Part shown: positions 7,108 to 15,076 of the stretch, in pieces | How the letters are laid out: the number at the start of each line of letters is the position of its first letter | Position numbering within the stretch: the first letter of the stretch is position 1 | DNA from: Bdellovibrio sp. | GTDB lineage: Bacteria > Bdellovibrionota > Bdellovibrionia > Bdellovibrionales > Bdellovibrionaceae | Assembly: GCA_019104905.1 (NCBI GenBank) | Contig: JAHRXB010000306.1 | Location: 1 to 15,781 of the forward strand | Direction of reading: 5' to 3' | DNA: 15,781 bases | Translations under genes and position numbers: made by a program | The notes under the pieces: model-generated | The model's database searches: none | Told to the model about the DNA's origin: nothing | What the model saw: the letters and a program-made list of their open reading frames with translations, nothing else

Positions 7108-7113
7108 ATTCTA
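7108..7113 (-). promoter_or_regulatory. -10 box of the PAS gene
   Basis: TAGAAT on the minus strand matches TATAAT at five of six bases. It lies exactly 12 bp downstream of the left KdpE-like box, and transcription would begin near 7101, leaving a leader of about 17 nt that still contains the ribosome binding site. Confidence 0.5.
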
Positions 7114-7125
7114 GGTAAGATCAAT

Positions 7126-7146
7126 GTAAAAAAGATGTAAAAAAAG
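7126..7146 (-). promoter_or_regulatory. left KdpE-like operator (reads toward the PAS gene)
   Basis: On the minus strand this is CTTTTTTTACATCTTTTTTAC, here split as CTTTTTTTACAT and CTTTTTTAC, two direct half-sites about one helical turn apart. Tandem half-sites of this kind suit head-to-tail binding by an OmpR/PhoB-type dimer. Its 18 bases 7126-7143 are an exact inverted copy of 7183-7200. Confidence 0.6.
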
Positions 7147-7182
7147 ACAGGAAATATTTGGATTCGTTTTTTCACGCAACGA

Positions 7183-7200
7183 TTTTTACATCTTTTTTAC
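7183..7200 (+). promoter_or_regulatory. right KdpE-like operator (reads toward kdpF)
   Basis: TTTTTACATC then TTTTTTAC are tandem half-sites that closely resemble, from memory, the T-rich E. coli KdpE site upstream of kdpFABC (half-sites of the TTTTTATA and TTTTTACA type). It ends 12 bp before the TAGTCT -10, as PhoB-type boxes that replace a -35 element do. A degenerate third copy, TTTTTTCACG, lies at 7167-7176. Confidence 0.65.
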
Positions 7201-7212
7201 GCATTTGTTGGC

Positions 7213-7218
7213 TAGTCT
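7213..7218 (+). promoter_or_regulatory. -10 box of the kdp operon
   Basis: TAGTCT is a weak -10 (three of six), as expected of an activator-dependent promoter. It is 12 bp from the right KdpE-like box, the same distance as on the other strand. Transcription would start near 7225, and the kdpF Shine-Dalgarno GGAGG is at 7241-7245. Confidence 0.45.
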
Positions 7219-7253: not shown

Positions 7254-7337
7254 ATGGATTTCGTTCTTGCTGGCATTGTTGGCGTCGCTGTCCTTGGCTT
7301 TTTGGTTTATACGCTTCTTTATCCAGAGAAATTTTGA
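7254..7337 (+). CDS. kdpF: KdpF, small subunit of the potassium-transporting ATPase
   Basis: A 27-residue hydrophobic peptide beginning MDFVLAGIVGVAV and ending LVYTLLYPEKF. It forms a single membrane helix with the family's LVY-x-L and E-K/A-F ending, close in length to the 29-residue E. coli KdpF. In the KdpFABC complex KdpF sits like a lipid at the KdpA-KdpB contact and stabilises it. The ATG at 7254 follows GGAGG (7241-7245) by eight bases. Its TGA stop (7335-7337) overlaps the ribosome binding site of kdpA, whose ATG is 8 bp further on, so the two are translated together. The gene is first in the operon, as is usual. Confidence 0.93.
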   Translation: MDFVLAGIVGVAVLGFLVYTLLYPEKF

Positions 7338-7345
7338 GGTGAACG

Positions 7346-9037
7346 ATGGGTTTAGCTGATATCTTACAGTTTCTATTGTTCATAATTCTTTTGACGGCTT
7401 TGACACCTCTTTTAGGGGGACTCATGGTCAAGATTTTTGAAGGACAGAAAAACTTCTTATCTAAGCCGTTGGGATGGATTGAGCGCTTGGCGTACCGTTT
7501 TGCGGGCATTGATGCAAGTTATGAAATGACTTGGAAAGAATATGCCACCTCGTTGATGATATTCAATATTGTTGGGATCGTTGTTGTTACGATGTTTCAA
7601 ATGATTCAGTGGCATCTGCCACTGAATCCTCAGGGACTGACTGGAGTCTCTTGGCATTCTGCCTTAAATACTGCAGTGAGCTTCATAACCAATACTAACT
7701 GGCAGGGATATTCTGGAGAAGTAACAATGAGTTACTTGACTCAGATGATGACTCTTGCCGTTCAGAACTTTGTTAGCGCTGCTGTTGGAATGGCTGTAGT
7801 AATAGCCCTAACTCGGGGGATTGCTCGAAGGAGTTCTCGGATGATCGGTAACTTCTGGGTTGATATGACTCGAGGAACGGTTTACGTCCTTCTGCCCTTG
7901 GCCGTGATCTTTACTTTGATTCTGGTCGGTCAAGGCGTCGTGCAAACCTTTTTGCCTTACCTTGAAGTCGTTACGCTGGAAGGGCTCAAGCAAATTATTC
8001 CTTTAGGGCCAGCCGCTTCGCAGATTGCCATTAAGATGTTGGGAACGAACGGTGGAGGATTTTTTAATTCTAACTCATCTCATCCTTTTGAAAATGCCAC
8101 TGCCCTATCGAATTTTCTACAAATGTTATCGATCTTTTTGATCCCAGCCGCATTGACTTATACTTACGGAACGATCACTCATGCACGTAAGCATGGCTGG
8201 GTGATCTTCAGTGTGATGCTGGCTCTTTTTGTCGTCTTTACTTCGTTGTCTTTGGTTTCAGAATATACCTTTAATCCCGTTCTTGGATATGCGGGAGTGA
8301 TGGAAGGCAAGGAGGTCCGATTTGGGGTTTTTAACAGTGTCTTCTTCTCTTCAGTAACGACCTCTGCATCTTGTGGGGCCGTGAACGCAATGCACTCTTC
8401 TTTGTCGCCCTTATCTGGCGGAATTGCCATGCTCAATATGATGTTGGGAGAGATCATATTCGGGGGCGTGGGCGCGGGCCTTTACGGAGTTCTTCTGTTT
8501 GTTCTTCTTACAGTTTTTATCGCAGGCCTTATGGTGGGAAGAACTCCTGAGTATCTAGGTAAAAAAATTGAGGCTCCAGAAATGACGATGGTGATTCTTG
8601 CGATCTTAGCTCCTTGTGCGACAGTTCTTATTGGTACGGGTATTTCGGTCGTGACACCGACAGCGCTTTCGAGTCTGGCGAACAAGGGTCCTCATGGGTT
8701 TTCAGAGATTCTTTATGCGTTCACCTCCGCTGCCGCGAATAATGGAAGCGCCTTTGCTGGGCTCAATGCCAACACCATCTATTATAATTTAATGCTTGCT
8801 TTGGTGATGTTCATAGGTCGCTTTGCCGTTATTGTTCCTGTACTTGCTGTGGCCGGAAGTTTAGCGAATAGAAAGTATTCTCCTCCATCCTCAGGAACCT
8901 TCGAAGTGGACTCAGTGCTGTTTGGTATCCTTCTTGTGGGAGTAATTTTAATTGTAGGTGCGTTGACTTTTCTACCGGGACTTTCTCTTGGGCCGATTGT
9001 CGAACACCTGATGATGATAAAAGGGCAAACCTTTTAA
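7346..9037 (+). CDS. kdpA: KdpA, potassium-translocating subunit
   Basis: Inner-membrane, channel-like subunit (563 residues; E. coli 557) that selects and takes up K+ for the Kdp ATPase. It belongs to the superfamily of K+ transporters with four pseudo-repeats, each bearing a selectivity-filter loop. All four loops are visible: FITNTNWQGYSGE (113-125), LGTNGGGFFN (232-241), ASCGAVNAMH (341-350) and AANNGSAFAG (463-472). G233 corresponds to the filter glycine G232 of the E. coli protein. About ten hydrophobic helices surround them. The ATG at 7346 is preceded by GAGGTG (7336-7341), which overlaps the kdpF stop. kdpB follows after 12 bp. Nothing appears missing, so the protein should be functional. 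Confidence 0.98.
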   Translation: MGLADILQFLLFIILLTALTPLLGGLMVKIFEGQKNFLSKPLGWIERLAYRFAGIDASYEMTWKEYATSLMIFNIVGIVVVTMFQMIQWHLPLNPQGLTGVSWHSALNTAVSFITNTNWQGYSGEVTMSYLTQMMTLAVQNFVSAAVGMAVVIALTRGIARRSSRMIGNFWVDMTRGTVYVLLPLAVIFTLILVGQGVVQTFLPYLEVVTLEGLKQIIPLGPAASQIAIKMLGTNGGGFFNSNSSHPFENATALSNFLQMLSIFLIPAALTYTYGTITHARKHGWVIFSVMLALFVVFTSLSLVSEYTFNPVLGYAGVMEGKEVRFGVFNSVFFSSVTTSASCGAVNAMHSSLSPLSGGIAMLNMMLGEIIFGGVGAGLYGVLLFVLLTVFIAGLMVGRTPEYLGKKIEAPEMTMVILAILAPCATVLIGTGISVVTPTALSSLANKGPHGFSEILYAFTSAAANNGSAFAGLNANTIYYNLMLALVMFIGRFAVIVPVLAVAGSLANRKYSPPSSGTFEVDSVLFGILLVGVILIVGALTFLPGLSLGPIVEHLMMIKGQTF

Positions 9038-9049
9038 AGGATATTTTTT

Positions 9050-11137
9050 ATGTCGATGCAAAAAACAAATCAATTATTTAACAGCGAACTGATGATTCCG
9101 GCTTTGAAAGACGCCTTACTTAAGTTGGACCCTCGTTATCAGATTAGAAATCCAGTTATGTTTGTGACCATGATTGGAGCTGTTCTAACTACTGTTTATG
9201 TTATTTTTGGAGTCGGCCAGGGTTCCCGAGTCTTTGAAGTTCAGATAGCTTTATGGTTGTGGTTTACAGTTCTATTTGCAAACTTTGCTGAAGCCGTGGC
9301 TGAAGGGCGGGGAAAAGCTCAGGCCGCGAGCCTACGGAAGGCAAGAACGTCCACACAGGCGCGTCTTTTGATGGGGCGAGAAGAAATCAGTATATCTGCT
9401 GCTGAACTAAAAAAAGGCGACATCGTGGTTTGTGAAACACATGATATTATTCCGAGCGATGGCGAGGTGATTGATGGAATCGCCAGTGTGGATGAGTCCG
9501 CTATAACTGGAGAATCTGCTCCTGTCATTCGGGAGGCTGGTGGAGACAGAAGTGCTGTGACTGGTGGTACCCGGGTAATAAGTGATCGCATTTTGATTCG
9601 GATTACTGCTGAGTCTGGTCACAGCTTCTTGGATCGTATGATTTCTTTGGTTGAGGGAGCCAAACGACAGAAGACTCCCAATGAGATTGCGTTGAGTATC
9701 GTGTTATCAGGCCTGACGATCATATTTGTTCTGGCCGTAGGAACATTAAAACTCTTCTCTGACTATAGCGGAGTCGCTGCGGGGCAAGATCTTCGAAGCA
9801 TAGTCACGGTCCCCGTTCTTGTTGCACTTTTAGTTTGCTTGATTCCCACAACGATCGGCGGTCTGTTAAGTGCTATCGGTATCAGTGGAATGGATCGACT
9901 TATTCGCAGAAACGTGATTGCGACCAGTGGTCGATCAGTGGAGGCGGCTGGAGATATCGATGTTTTGCTTTTAGATAAAACGGGAACAATTACCCTTGGT
10001 AATCGCATGGCCACAGCATTCTTACCAGTTAAGGGAGTATCTTCGCAAAGGCTTGCAGAGGTCGCTCAGCTCGCGTCACTTGCAGATGAAACTCCTGAGG
10101 GAAGATCCATCGTAATATTGGCCAAAGATCAATACTCTTTACGGGCCCAAAGTTTGAGTCCCCACCAAGCGCATTTTATTCCATTTACAGCACAGACTCG
10201 CATGAGTGGGATTGACCTGGCATTTGAAAATGGAGTTAGGAATATTCGAAAAGGAGCCAGTCAGGCGGTGAAAGAGTACGTGCAGAAGATTGGGGGCATT
10301 GTTCCGTCCGATCTGGATATGATAGCCGATGAAGTCGCAAAAAAGGGAGGCACTCCTCTAGTTGTTGTCGATGATAAAGAAGTTCTGGGTGTCGTTCAGT
10401 TAAAAGACATTGTAAAGGGGGGAATCAAGGAACGTTTTGCGGAACTTCGCCGAATGGGGATTCGCACGATTATGATTACTGGAGACAATCCACTGACAGC
10501 TGCGGCTATCGCCGCCGAGGCCGGGGTGGATGACTTTATGGCTCAAGCAACTCCCGAGACGAAGCTAAATCGAATCCGCGAAGAACAGGCGAGTGGCCAT
10601 CTTGTGGCGATGACCGGAGACGGAACCAACGATGCTCCAGCATTGGCCCAGGCCGATGTTGGGGTAGCTATGAATACCGGGACTCAGGCTGCCCGTGAGG
10701 CGGGTAATATGGTGGATTTGGATAGTAATCCAACAAAATTGATAGAGATTGTTGAAATAGGAAAACAGCTACTAATGACTCGAGGGTCTTTGACGACCTT
10801 TAGTATTGCCAATGATGTGGCAAAATACTTTGCAATTTTACCTGCTCTTTTCAGTACACTCTACTTAGTCCCAGGAGCCAAGGAGGGGCCGCTTTCGGTG
10901 TTGAATGTAATGGGGCTTTCCTCGCCGGAAAGTGCCATCCTGAGTGCGGTCATCTTTAATGCCTTGATCATTGTGGCTTTGATTCCTTTGGCCTTACGGG
11001 GAGTGCCTTATCGGGCAGAAAGTTCCGCCTTAATTTTAAGACGAAACCTGATCATTTATGGCCTCGGTGGGTTGATCGCGCCCTTTGTTGGAATCAAAAT
11101 TATCGACATTGTTATCACCTCCGTCGGTTTGGTTTAG
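9050..11137 (+). CDS. kdpB: KdpB, catalytic P-type ATPase subunit
   Basis: ATP-hydrolysing subunit of KdpFABC, 695 residues (E. coli 682), in the inner membrane with large cytoplasmic domains. Motifs in order are: actuator TGES (153-156; S156 corresponds to the inhibitory phosphorylation site S162 of E. coli), membrane IPTT (265-268), phosphorylated aspartate D309 in DKTGTIT, nucleotide-domain KGA (401-403), TGDN (477-480), hinge GDGTNDAP (523-530), and the charged pair D589/K592 in [10 protein letters not shown], which in E. coli couples to ion movement. The start is ATG 9050 with AAAGGA (9036-9041) eight bases upstream; a second ATG two codons later would also work. The spacing to kdpC is 15 bp. 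Every catalytic motif is intact. Confidence 0.99.
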
Positions 11138-11152
11138 GGAAGGAGTTAAGAT

Positions 11153-11719
11153 ATGAAACATCTTTTAGCGGCAATTCGAATCAATATATTCTTTATGATT
11201 TTTCTTGGACTTGGATACCCTCTGGTCATGACGGTCATTTCTAATGGACTGTTTCAAGACAAGGCTGATGGGAGCATTATATCAATGGATGGGAAGGCTA
11301 TGGGGTCTTCCTTGATTGGTCAAAAATTTGAAAAAGCAGAGTATTTTTGGCCACGTCCCTCCGCGATTGATTACAATCCTCTTCCTTCGGGAGGCTCGAA
11401 TTTAAGTCTTCAATCAGAGAACTTGAAGAGAGTTGTGGAAGAACGAAAGAGGAGGTTGACGGCGGCCCATCCAGAAAGTGGAGAGCCACCGCAAGATCTG
11501 CTTTTTACATCTGCTAGCGGATTAGATCCTCATATCAGTCCTGCGGCGGCTCGCTATCAGATCTTACGCGTAGCAAAGGCGAGATTGTTGGACCCCTTGA
11601 AAGTGACAGCGCTCGTCGAAAGACACATTGAGGCGAGACAATGGGGGGGCTTTGGTGAACCCACTGTGAATGTGTTAAAACTCAATATAGCTCTAGATGG
11701 AATGCAGGAAGTGAAGTAG
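11153..11719 (+). CDS. kdpC: KdpC, accessory subunit of the potassium ATPase
   Basis: A 188-residue subunit with one N-terminal membrane helix (about residues 10-31) and a periplasmic domain that sits over KdpA and raises K+ affinity. Typical family stretches are GSSLIGQKF (51-59), YFWPRPSAIDYNPLPSGGSN (64-83) and SGLDPHISPAAARYQ (about 122-136). Length matches the usual 190 residues. The ATG follows AGGAG (11141-11145) by seven bases. It ends 22 bp before kdpE, so the structural and regulatory genes are probably one transcript. Confidence 0.97.
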   Translation: MKHLLAAIRINIFFMIFLGLGYPLVMTVISNGLFQDKADGSIISMDGKAMGSSLIGQKFEKAEYFWPRPSAIDYNPLPSGGSNLSLQSENLKRVVEERKRRLTAAHPESGEPPQDLLFTSASGLDPHISPAAARYQILRVAKARLLDPLKVTALVERHIEARQWGGFGEPTVNVLKLNIALDGMQEVK

Positions 11720-11741
11720 GTTTTTACTTAGTGGAGGTCCT

Positions 11742-12425
11742 ATGCCGAACGGCGAGATTCGGATTCTTGTTGTTGATGATGAGTCTGCTATTCGTAATGT
11801 CTTGAGAATTAGTCTTGCGTCTCATGGTTATAAAATAGCTGAAGCTGAATCCGGAAAGGGGGGGCTTGAGAAAGCCTCTGAATTTCATCCTCATCTGATA
11901 ATTCTTGATTTGGGTCTGCCAGATATTTCGGGTTATGAGGTTGTAAAGGAACTTCGCCGTTGGACTCAGGTTCCCATTTTGGTTTTGACAGTAGATGATG
12001 ATGAGATCTCTAAAGTAAATCTCTTAGACGCAGGAGCGGATGACTATCTAACCAAACCATTCGGAACTCCTGAGCTATTGGCTCGGATACGAGTGGGGTT
12101 GCGCAATCGGGGGATGATCGAAGCAACTCCTATGTTTAAATCTGGAACTCTTGAGGTAGATATTAATTCTCGCAAAGTTATCCGGAATGGACAGAACGTG
12201 AAATTGACTAATACTGAGTTCGAGGTCCTCGCTCGTCTCATAAGGGATCGCGGAAAGTTTGTCTCGCAAGCGTTGTTGTTGAAGCAGATTTGGGGAAGTA
12301 CCGCAGAAGACCAGAGTCACTATTTAAGAATTTATGTGAATCAGTTGCGCAAAAAAATTGAAGAGAATCCAGCAGAACCTGTGCATATTCTAACAGAGCC
12401 TGGCGTGGGTTACAAAATTGTTTGA
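11742..12425 (+). CDS. kdpE: KdpE, response regulator of the kdp operon
   Basis: OmpR/PhoB-type transcription factor of 227 residues. The receiver domain (about 6-122) has the acidic pair D12-D13, phospho-acceptor D56 (ILDLGLPD), switch T83 and K105 (YLTKPF). The winged-helix DNA-binding domain (about 132-227) has the recognition region SHYLRIYVNQLRKKIE and the wing LTEPGVGYKI, wording typical of KdpE. Once phosphorylated by KdpD it should dimerise and bind tandem T-rich half-sites; good candidates lie at 7126-7146 and 7183-7200. The ATG follows GGAGG (11733-11737) by four bases. In E. coli kdpD comes before kdpE; here the order is reversed. Confidence 0.95.
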   Translation: MPNGEIRILVVDDESAIRNVLRISLASHGYKIAEAESGKGGLEKASEFHPHLIILDLGLPDISGYEVVKELRRWTQVPILVLTVDDDEISKVNLLDAGADDYLTKPFGTPELLARIRVGLRNRGMIEATPMFKSGTLEVDINSRKVIRNGQNVKLTNTEFEVLARLIRDRGKFVSQALLLKQIWGSTAEDQSHYLRIYVNQLRKKIEENPAEPVHILTEPGVGYKIV

Positions 12426-12439
12426 GGCTTAGTGAAACC

Positions 12440-15076
12440 ATGAGCGACTATCGTCCCAATCCCGAAGATCTTTTAGGAGCTGTTCAAAAGATGGAGACCC
12501 AACGAGGTCGCTTGCGGGTCTTTTTGGGAATGTGTCCGGGAGTTGGTAAAACATACTCCATGTTAAAATCCGCGCAGGAGCAGCAAAAACGCGGAGTTCG
12601 AGTGTATGTTGGCCTTGTTGAAACTCACGGACGGAAGGAGACAGAGGATCTTCTTCAGGGGCTAATACTGATCCCAAGAAAAGCTATTAATTATCGAGGA
12701 ACTATTGTTGAAGAGATGGATATCGACAAGATTCTTGAGATCAAACCTCGATTGGTTTTGGTTGACGAATTGGCTCACACCAATGCTCCAGGGTCACGTC
12801 ACAAAAAACGTTATCAAGACGTTGAAGAGCTGCTCAATCAAGGTATTGATGTATACACGACAGTGAATATTCAGCATATAGAGAGTCGTAATGATCAGAT
12901 CGCGCAAATTACGTCTGTGATAGTGCAAGAGACAGTTCCCGATTCTATCTTGGCAAATGCGGATCAGATTGAATTTGTGGATTTGTCTCCTAAAGAGCTT
13001 TTACGTCGTCTGCAGGAGGGCAAGGTCTATCTCGGTGATAAAGCGGAGCGAGCTGCACAGAACTTCTTTAAAGAAGAACATTTAACGGCCTTGCGTGAAC
13101 TGGCTTTGCGCTTTACCGCCGAAAAGGTTGATCAAGAGCTGCAAGATCAAATGCTCATGAAAGGAATTGAAGGACCTTGGAATACGAATGAAAGACTTTT
13201 GGTAGCGATAAGCCATAGCCCTTACTCAAGCCGATTGATACGAGCCACAAGACGCATGGCCTATAGCCTGGAGTCACCCTGGGTTGTTCTTTATGTAGAT
13301 ACAGGGGAGGTCTTGAAGCCTGAAGATCAAGCCATGCTAAAGAAGCACTTGGCTTTGGCACGGGAGTTGGGAGCAGAAGTTGTTACTTTAGCTGATACAA
13401 GTATCACGGGAGCAATTCATAAAATTTGTCGCGAAAAAAATGTCACACAGATTGTAATGGGACGTCCCGATAGAAGGTTCTTCAAAGATTTTTTTTCCCG
13501 AGGGACTTTGTTAGATCAATTAGTAAGAATCACCAGCTCTATTGATGTTCATGTAATCAGGGCTGAGAGAAGACCGGTTTATAGGGGTTTTCGAGTAAGA
13601 ATACCGAAATTGGCGTCAGGATGGGTTCCATATTATTATACCGCCTGGTATATCATAGCCGTTTCATTTGTTTGTTATGCTGCGATTCCGTTTGTAGGAT
13701 ATCAGGCCTTAGGATCAGTCTTCTTGTTGGCTATTCTCGTGGTCGCTTCGTTGGCCACTCAAGGACCCATTTTGTTTGCAGCGATTTTAAGCGCATTGAT
13801 ATGGGACTTTTATTTTATTCCGCCACACTTCACTTTTGCGATTCGTGAGTACCACGATATTATGATGGTATTGACTTATATTGTTGTCGCTTTGGTTGGT
13901 GGCAAGCTGACTTCAAAGATTAGAAAACAAGAGAAAATCCTTCGAGTTCGTGAAGAGAAATCAAGGCGACTTTATGAGCTAAGTAAAAAGATTTCAGAGG
14001 CAAGGCAAGAGAGTGCAATTTTAGATGTTCTCATAGGTACTCTGGAAGATGTATTAGAAGGCGATGTGGTTCCGGTTCTAAGTAGTAAATCAGGCGTTCT
14101 GGATTTTGAAAATTCGCAACGGAAGATGGATGAAAAGGATCAGGCCGTAGCCCAGTGGGTCTTTGAGCAAAGGAAAAGTGCCGGATGGTCTACGCAAACT
14201 TTGGCCGGCTCCCGCTGTTTATGTCTTCCAATGAAGGGTCGAGGTGGGGCTATCGGGGTTCTTTGCTATTTCCCCAGAAAGCGTCAGAAGAAGTTAGATA
14301 TTGAACAAGAAGGTTTTATTGATGTCGTTCTTAGTCAGATTGCTATTGCCGTAGAACGGTTGAGATACAGTGAAGCAGCTCAGGCTGCAAAAATTTATGA
14401 GTTATCTGAAAAAGTTCATCAAACTTTAATCAGTTCCGTCTCGCATGAGTTGAGAACTCCTATTGCGGCTATTATGGCAAGTTCCACGGCGTTACAAGAT
14501 CCCACTACTGCGGAAGATAAAGATGCTCGTACTGCCTTAACTGACGAGATGGTGAAATCCTCAAAGCGTCTGAATCGGGTGGTCGAGAATCTTTTGGATG
14601 TATCTCGTTTGGAAAACGAACGGTTGTCTTTGAATTTGGAGAAATTCACTGCTTCCGAGTTATTTGAACAAGTGAGGATCTATCTAAAAGACGAACTTGA
14701 TGGTCGAATCTTGCAGATCAACGGCGATCTTGACGTCACTCTCACTGGTGATTTCCGTTTGCTGGTGCACGCGTTTGCGAATATTGTCTCGAATTCTTTA
14801 GTATACTCAAAAGGAGCTGTAACCGTTCAAATCCATTCACTTGGTTCCAAGGTTGAGATATCAGTTTTAGATGAGGGGCCGGGATTGCCCCCAGGCTCTG
14901 AGAATCACATCTTTGAAAAGTTCTTTCGCGTTTCTGGGAGTCCCGCTGGCGGTCTGGGGTTGGGACTTTCCATTGTGAAGTCTATTTTCGAAATGCATGG
15001 CGGGCATGTGCGGGCACAGAACCGTGTAGATCGAAGTGGCTTGGAAGTTGTGTGTGAACTTTTATTGCAAAAATAA
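12440..15076 (+). CDS. kdpD: KdpD, potassium-sensing histidine kinase
   Basis: Membrane sensor kinase that phosphorylates KdpE when K+ is scarce; 878 residues from ATG 12440 (E. coli 894). Domains in order: KdpD N-terminal ATP-binding domain (about 22-235, Walker A GMCPGVGKT at 30-38, VDELAHTNAPGSRH at 108-121); universal-stress-protein domain (about 250-375); four membrane helices (about 395-490); GAF-like domain (about 520-640); HisKA with the phosphorylated H669 (SVSHELRTP); and ATPase domain with N781/N785, DEGPGLP (811-817), FEKFFR and GGLGLGLSIVK. An in-frame TTG at 12422 overlaps the kdpE stop, but I prefer ATG 12440 because MSDYRPNPEDLL aligns with the known KdpD start. GAGG (12424-12427) is 12 bases from that ATG, so initiation may be weak or coupled to kdpE. 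No catalytic residue is lost. Confidence 0.96.
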   Translation: MSDYRPNPEDLLGAVQKMETQRGRLRVFLGMCPGVGKTYSMLKSAQEQQKRGVRVYVGLVETHGRKETEDLLQGLILIPRKAINYRGTIVEEMDIDKILEIKPRLVLVDELAHTNAPGSRHKKRYQDVEELLNQGIDVYTTVNIQHIESRNDQIAQITSVIVQETVPDSILANADQIEFVDLSPKELLRRLQEGKVYLGDKAERAAQNFFKEEHLTALRELALRFTAEKVDQELQDQMLMKGIEGPWNTNERLLVAISHSPYSSRLIRATRRMAYSLESPWVVLYVDTGEVLKPEDQAMLKKHLALARELGAEVVTLADTSITGAIHKICREKNVTQIVMGRPDRRFFKDFFSRGTLLDQLVRITSSIDVHVIRAERRPVYRGFRVRIPKLASGWVPYYYTAWYIIAVSFVCYAAIPFVGYQALGSVFLLAILVVASLATQGPILFAAILSALIWDFYFIPPHFTFAIREYHDIMMVLTYIVVALVGGKLTSKIRKQEKILRVREEKSRRLYELSKKISEARQESAILDVLIGTLEDVLEGDVVPVLSSKSGVLDFENSQRKMDEKDQAVAQWVFEQRKSAGWSTQTLAGSRCLCLPMKGRGGAIGVLCYFPRKRQKKLDIEQEGFIDVVLSQIAIAVERLRYSEAAQAAKIYELSEKVHQTLISSVSHELRTPIAAIMASSTALQDPTTAEDKDARTALTDEMVKSSKRLNRVVENLLDVSRLENERLSLNLEKFTASELFEQVRIYLKDELDGRILQINGDLDVTLTGDFRLLVHAFANIVSNSLVYSKGAVTVQIHSLGSKVEISVLDEGPGLPPGSENHIFEKFFRVSGSPAGGLGLGLSIVKSIFEMHGGHVRAQNRVDRSGLEVVCELLLQK

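Follow-up and report, generated by a model that had tools for sequence, protein, structure and literature searches.

Introduction

KdpE is chiefly known for switching the kdp operon. Other regulators of the OmpR family bind similar tandem sites, and at Pho boxes PhoB occupies tandem direct repeats that replace the -35 element and lie close to the -10 hexamer.

In E. coli, as described in the excerpted text of PMC3264566, KdpE recognises two 6-bp half-sites upstream of kdpF, TTTATA and TTTACA, which are set 5 bp apart, its footprint extends from -72 to -50, and residues R193, R200 and T215 are reported to be important for DNA binding. KdpE sites of Clostridium, Staphylococcus and Mycobacterium are listed in PMC5401905, including a 22-bp A-rich motif of M. 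smegmatis that is, according to its authors, unlike other KdpE sites. Wider roles of KdpE in virulence have also been reported (PMC3610689, in excerpt), and a usable KdpE consensus was looked for in PMC7657598 and none was found there. For Bdellovibrio, kdpE (Bd1759) appears in a table of regulated genes in the excerpted part of PMC3818213, and no paper titled on a Bdellovibrio KdpE regulon was among the matches listed in a search that had most subscription journals outside its range.

Here, a stretch of 15,781 nucleotides from Bdellovibrio sp. (assembly GCA_019104905.1, contig JAHRXB010000306.1), called the window, was analysed around a 111-bp region (7108-7218) between the kdp operon and a lone PAS gene. 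As judged from its sequence, this region is in all probability a two-way KdpE control region with boxes that drive both. What emerges is no new kind of system; a known regulatory system has been extended in this lineage and occurs here in a re-positioned form.

Twin boxes between kdp and a lone PAS gene

The window belongs to a 2.93-Mb draft genome that is 88% complete, and the 23 other genomes of its genus have sizes of 3.0-4.1 Mb. The kdpF-A-B-C-E-D operon is complete (7254-15076), and the PAS-like gene stands back to back with it on the opposite strand (Table 1). The window kdpF also scores 25.5 bits with the NCBIfam kdpF model, just under the cut-off of 26.85.

Table 1. Features of the window, and of related loci (L numbers), with their positions
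Feature	Position	Strand	Remarks
Lone PAS-fold protein gene, 105 aa	6767..7084	-	AAGGAG upstream of ATG
Putative -10 hexamer TAGAAT, PAS gene	7108..7113	-	box, then 12 bp (7125-7114)
Weaker overlapping box, TTTTTACATTGATCTTAC, 12/14	7115..7132	-	next 11-bp register
KdpE-like box toward PAS gene, TTTTTACATCTTTTTTAC	7126..7143	-	exact match; 1 of 2 in genome
KdpE-like box toward kdpF, TTTTTACATCTTTTTTAC	7183..7200	+	exact match; 1 of 2 in genome
Putative -10 hexamer TAGTCT, kdp operon	7213..7218	+	box, then 12 bp (7201-7212)
kdpF, 27 aa	7254..7337	+	PF09604, 30.4 bits vs cut-off 21.2
kdpA	7346..9037	+	PF03814, 776 bits
kdpB	9050..11137	+	E1-E2_ATPase and HAD hydrolase domains; operon position
kdpC	11153..11719	+	PF02669
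kdpE, candidate regulator	11742..12425	+	best PDB matches include KdpE chains 4kny, 4kfc
kdpD, sensor kinase	12422..15076	+	KdpD, DUF4118, Usp, HisKA, HATPase; GAF below cut-off
Small hydrophobic protein gene, 93-98 aa	L111:7412-7696; L113:6626-6907; L159:5534-5827; L164:8037-8333		
BBP2-family outer-membrane porin gene adjoining kdp	L110:7574-8926; L111:5752-6930; L113:7413-8561; L160:5705-6922; L163:5398-6786		PF07642

A sequence-only reading had described a perfect 18-bp inverted repeat in this gap (7126-7143 / 7183-7200), and it is found both in the sequence and by a repeat finder, with 39 nt between the arms. The arms are two exact, outward-facing copies of TTTTTAC-N4-TTTTTAC, the left one on the minus strand and the right one on the plus strand. 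The repeat is the product of two identical directional boxes set in opposite orientations, pointing outward, and is in itself neither a palindromic operator nor a hairpin. Each box ends exactly 12 bp before a TAGNNT hexamer, as had also been claimed, and both TAGTCT (kdpF side) and TAGAAT (PAS side) are present. The weaker minus-strand box that overlaps the left arm may possibly supply a third half-site. Both inferred transcription starts fall outside the inverted repeat.

The pattern TTTTTACN4TTTTTACN12TANNNT, searched with up to 3 mismatches, has two matches in the window, both exact, compared with a mean of 0.07 in 200 shuffles, none of which contained two. Across the 2.93-Mb genome there are 25 matches, namely the two exact ones, both in the gap, and 23 at 3 mismatches that are no excess over a reversed-pattern control (40 genome matches in all), and there is none at 1 or 2 mismatches. 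The box alone has two exact genome matches versus one for the control, a count not far above chance; the pairing, the spacing and the hexamers are. The genome count and the shuffles agree with the earlier claim that box, spacing and hexamer on both strands are hard to explain by chance.

The candidate regulator and its putative operator

The window KdpE is a response regulator with a receiver and a winged-helix domain, is encoded together with kdpD, and matches E. coli KdpE chains of the PDB along its length. Its score with the NCBIfam KdpE equivalog, 235 bits, lies below the cut-off of 325 and is still the best of 101 models. In an alignment to E. coli KdpE, R193, R200 and T215 are all kept, the arginines in a second comparison too.

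The plus-strand box contains the half-sites TTTACA-TCTTT-TTTACG and the minus-strand box TTTACA-5-TTTACA. The box is like the E. coli KdpE operator in its two T-rich direct half-sites, their 11-bp register and their equal spacing, and differs from it in position, with -72 to -50 in E. coli (PMC3264566, in excerpt) and approximately -42 to -25 here, the latter derived from the hexamer on the assumption of a start about 7 bp after it. A further difference is that the window box is doubled back to back, apparently serving a second gene. The proposal that the arms resemble the E. coli operator is borne out for half-site sequence and spacing (PMC3264566), and not for position relative to the start. 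The sites of Clostridium, Staphylococcus and Mycobacterium share a location within the kdpFABC promoter and differ in that no PAS gene is mentioned for them in the excerpted text of PMC5401905.

The kdp-side box across the order

Among the 140 genomes of the order, 38 have kdpA, and 37 kdp loci were compared, one per genome (G113 is without a locus; a second copy in G035 and a second fragment in G026 were excluded). A box matching at least 13/14 positions lies within 350 bp upstream of kdpA at 23 of the 37 loci, the window included, with G025 and G060 both counted and sharing one and the same kdp promoter. TAnnnT follows at exactly 12 bp in 18 of these 23, each of the other spacings from 0 to 24 bp occurring at most once, and the background frequency of TAnnnT in kdp upstream regions is about 1.9% of positions; the other five boxed loci are without TAnnnT at 12 bp. 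Comparison with relatives had been proposed as a check, and on the kdp side both the box and its 12-bp spacing recur across the order. The kdp-side box is also present in Bdellovibrio sp. qaytius, a relative that can be grown in culture.

At 14 of the 37 loci, no box of at least 13/14 was found within 350 bp, and ten of these are in the window's genus (L012-L021), with KdpA 59-62% identical to that of the window and 54% in one case. These ten carry a different recurring element, for example TTTTTATATTTTCTTTAT, at 90-98 bp before kdpA, and none has TAnnnT 11-13 bp after it; this is perhaps a second type of KdpE site in the genus. The other four misses are G130 (52 bp of sequence available upstream), G026 (280 bp), G034, with a best site of 12/14, and G116, where the box sits before the upstream porin gene instead. 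In one locus of the same genus (L021, G001), the kdpA match covers residues 3-309 of 563 and has an internal stop, so that kdpA looks broken.

The PAS gene and its upstream sites

The 105-aa protein is assigned a PAS fold and stays below the Pfam PAS cut-off (PAS_8, 17.1 bits versus 21.8); a sequence search of the PDB with the PAS profile gave a best E of 0.63. Two homologues were obtained with the window protein as query and 24 with a relative, P0002, as query (P0002 counted), and the resulting 24-row alignment (A1) has 12 invariant columns; P0002-P0024 come from metagenome contigs. The gene is rare, with eight loci in seven of the 140 genomes of the order and in one of the 24 genomes of the genus. 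Membership of a larger family within the window genome was considered and rejected, as a profile search to E = 5 returned only the protein itself. A distant tblastn match (L101, E = 0.003) falls in an Elusimicrobia kdp locus, on a histidine-kinase frame of the PAS type.

The PAS gene lies beside kdp in L110-L113, and no kdpA, B, C or D was found near it in the 10-14 kb of sequence at L114, L115 and L116. A matrix was trained on 17 kdp promoters from genomes without the PAS gene; four of these promoters have no TAnnnT at 12 bp. The 150 bp preceding each PAS start were scored with it, with 1000 shuffles and 245 background upstream regions for comparison; the background includes L174 and L167, which were picked for exact boxes, a choice that works against the claim. 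Scores of 30.9 (window), 29.3 (L110), 38.9 (L111/L112), 37.5 (L113), 21.2 (L114) and 17.4 (L115) were equalled by none of the 1000 shuffles, and that of L116 (9.9) by one. Seven of the eight PAS loci, including L114 and L115, which are not near kdp, hence beat every shuffle. Background regions scored as high in 0/245 cases for the five kdp-linked loci, 1/245 for L114, 2/245 for L115 and 4/245 for L116, one of the last four being apparently the L116 gene itself.

With the identical promoters of L111 and L112 counted once, there are seven distinct PAS loci, and TAnnnT stands at 12 bp in five of them: the window, L110, L111/L112, L113 and, away from kdp, L114, whose box matches only 11/14. L115 has the hexamer TATGAT at 11 bp, and L116 has a weak site (12/14) without a hexamer at 12 bp. 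L110 has an outward pair too, with N4 = GCCA common to both boxes, one of which faces the PAS gene and the other a porin gene. It had been held that the absence of the left box from relatives keeping the PAS gene would speak against shared control; an upstream site is found at seven of the eight loci, and the eighth is weak. What the sequence shows directly is that the boxes and spacings exist, that they are rare in the genome and that relatives have them again at kdp and at PAS genes.

All seven genomes with the PAS gene carry kdpA, versus 38/140 overall (Fisher p = 7e-5, uncorrected for kinship or linkage). Such co-occurrence is expected where the two genes are neighbours, and it is independent of linkage only in G042 and G047, which have PAS and kdp on different contigs. 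The kdp/PAS locus is shared, down to the match scores, by L111 and L112 (G025 and G060), whose genomes are assigned to different genera; this can be read as recent transfer or draft-genome contamination.

Divergent boxes, a small membrane protein and porins

A reverse-facing box of at least 13/14 within 350 bp of kdpA occurs only in the window and G087 among the 37 loci. In G087 both boxes lack TAnnnT at 12 bp, and the reverse one is directed at a reading frame for a histidine kinase. Also inspected were nine kdp loci, of 7-14 kb each, that have no PAS gene as a neighbour (L159, L160, L162, L163, L164, L166, L170, L171 and L175). Two of them (L159 and L164, from genomes G043 and G047) have a more distant divergent box, with TAACCT or TATATT at 12 bp, which faces a small membrane-protein gene. 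In L111-L113 a gene of this sort comes immediately after the PAS gene; in L159 and L164 its own box, with the hexamer at 12 bp, matches 13/14 and 12/14 respectively. A Pfam scan of its hydrophobic product (L111, L113 and L164) gave no match, and the protein is a possible partner of the PAS protein. Divergent boxes occur without the PAS gene too (G087, G043 and G047), and because those of L159 and L164 face a small gene of the L111-L113 type, the divergent box seems to go with the PAS gene or its probable partner and not with kdp as such.

Boxes also face the BBP2-family porin genes, matching 14/14 in L110, L160 and L163 and 13/14 in L111 and L113. As only the porin box of L163 has TAnnnT at 12 bp, control of porins by KdpE in the relatives is only suggested. 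Porin-like genes, the likeness not coming from Pfam, are found in L159 (13/14 box without a hexamer) and L164 (no own box listed). In the window, neither a porin gene nor a small membrane-protein gene was seen between the PAS gene and kdp. The KdpE regulon appears, from these sites, to have been extended in the lineage to the small membrane-protein gene and, less clearly, to porin genes of relatives.

Boxes were also noted elsewhere. In L174 (4280-8930, G049), a 795-aa frame has an exact box with TAACAT 12 bp after it, and a regulator of the KdpE kind (47% identity) and a short kinase of the KdpD kind (35%) are divergent to this frame, possibly a KdpDE-type pair with a non-kdp target. In L167 (3796-4005, G042), a 7-kb contig without a kdp match, there is a cluster of TTTTTAC boxes that overlap one another, one matching 14/14 and three 13/14, and the neighbouring frames resemble translation genes by eye.

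Discussion

In the mechanism proposed here, phosphorylated KdpE, a product of the same operon, would bind each TTTTTACN4TTTTTAC box as a head-to-tail dimer. Because each box ends 12 bp before its -10 hexamer, it would cover the -35 region, and KdpE would take the place of a -35 element in bringing in RNA polymerase, like PhoB at its Pho boxes. The right box would drive the kdp operon including kdpE, giving positive feedback, and the left box would drive the lone PAS-fold protein gene. Tandem direct repeats replacing the -35 near the -10 are the likeness to Pho box promoters, from which the window differs in its box sequence, its 12-bp gap and its downstream potassium genes. We infer that KdpE is the binder, that it activates rather than represses and that low K+ induces; activation of both promoters by a KdpE seated over the -35 region is very likely. 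That one regulator would control both genes, as first suggested from the sequence, gains support from the recurrence on the kdp side and from the PAS-side sites in relatives.

One alternative is that the two boxes serve kdp alone: the left one would assist the kdpF promoter as an auxiliary KdpE site, and the PAS gene would be an unregulated neighbour. This would suit the location of both boxes within 75 bp, the frequent use of several sites by regulators of the OmpR family, and the additional boxes of L111 and L113 that have no hexamer at 12 bp. Such an arrangement is improbable, since the left box faces the PAS gene and has its own hexamer at 12 bp, sites precede PAS genes that are not near kdp (L114 and L115), and a close reverse box is confined to the window and G087. 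The hairpin reading, in which the repeat is a terminator or attenuator, draws on the perfect 18-bp arms and is ruled out in that both arms are upstream of both inferred starts, so that neither transcript would carry the hairpin. A chance AT-rich repeat is made very unlikely by the genome pattern count, the window shuffles and the matrix scores at PAS loci, and was likewise rejected; together these two readings have next to no probability.

Binding of the boxes by another regulator of the OmpR/PhoB family is quite improbable as well. The family as a whole uses tandem sites in 11-bp register, and the window KdpE falls below the equivalog cut-off; against this, the boxes precede kdp operons across the order, the half-sites are similar to the ones described for E. 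coli KdpE, and its contact residues are conserved in the window protein. Moreover, in L022 and L027, with KdpE 44-46% identical, the 500 bp preceding kdpA contain no good box (best sites 12/14, out of register with the others, and 9/14), an argument that is weak because L028, with KdpE 61% identical, is also without one (9/14).

For the preferred reading, two-way control by KdpE, our best guess for the PAS protein is a small role, accessory or feedback, in the potassium response. A wider and rather doubtful suggestion is that the Bdellovibrio group has an enlarged KdpE regulon, which would join high-affinity K+ uptake to a lone, lineage-specific PAS sensor and, in relatives, to the small membrane protein and the outer-membrane BBP2 porin, the PAS protein being a KdpE-induced feedback modulator of KdpD that is perhaps tied to in-prey conditions.

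To summarize, in a relative of Bdellovibrio the same regulator appears to turn on both the potassium pump and a small PAS-fold protein, and the arrangement suggests a KdpE promoter geometry unlike that of E. coli. With the rule of box and spacing, more target genes can be predicted in the Bdellovibrio group, and an uncharacterised PAS protein family gains a testable setting, potassium limitation.
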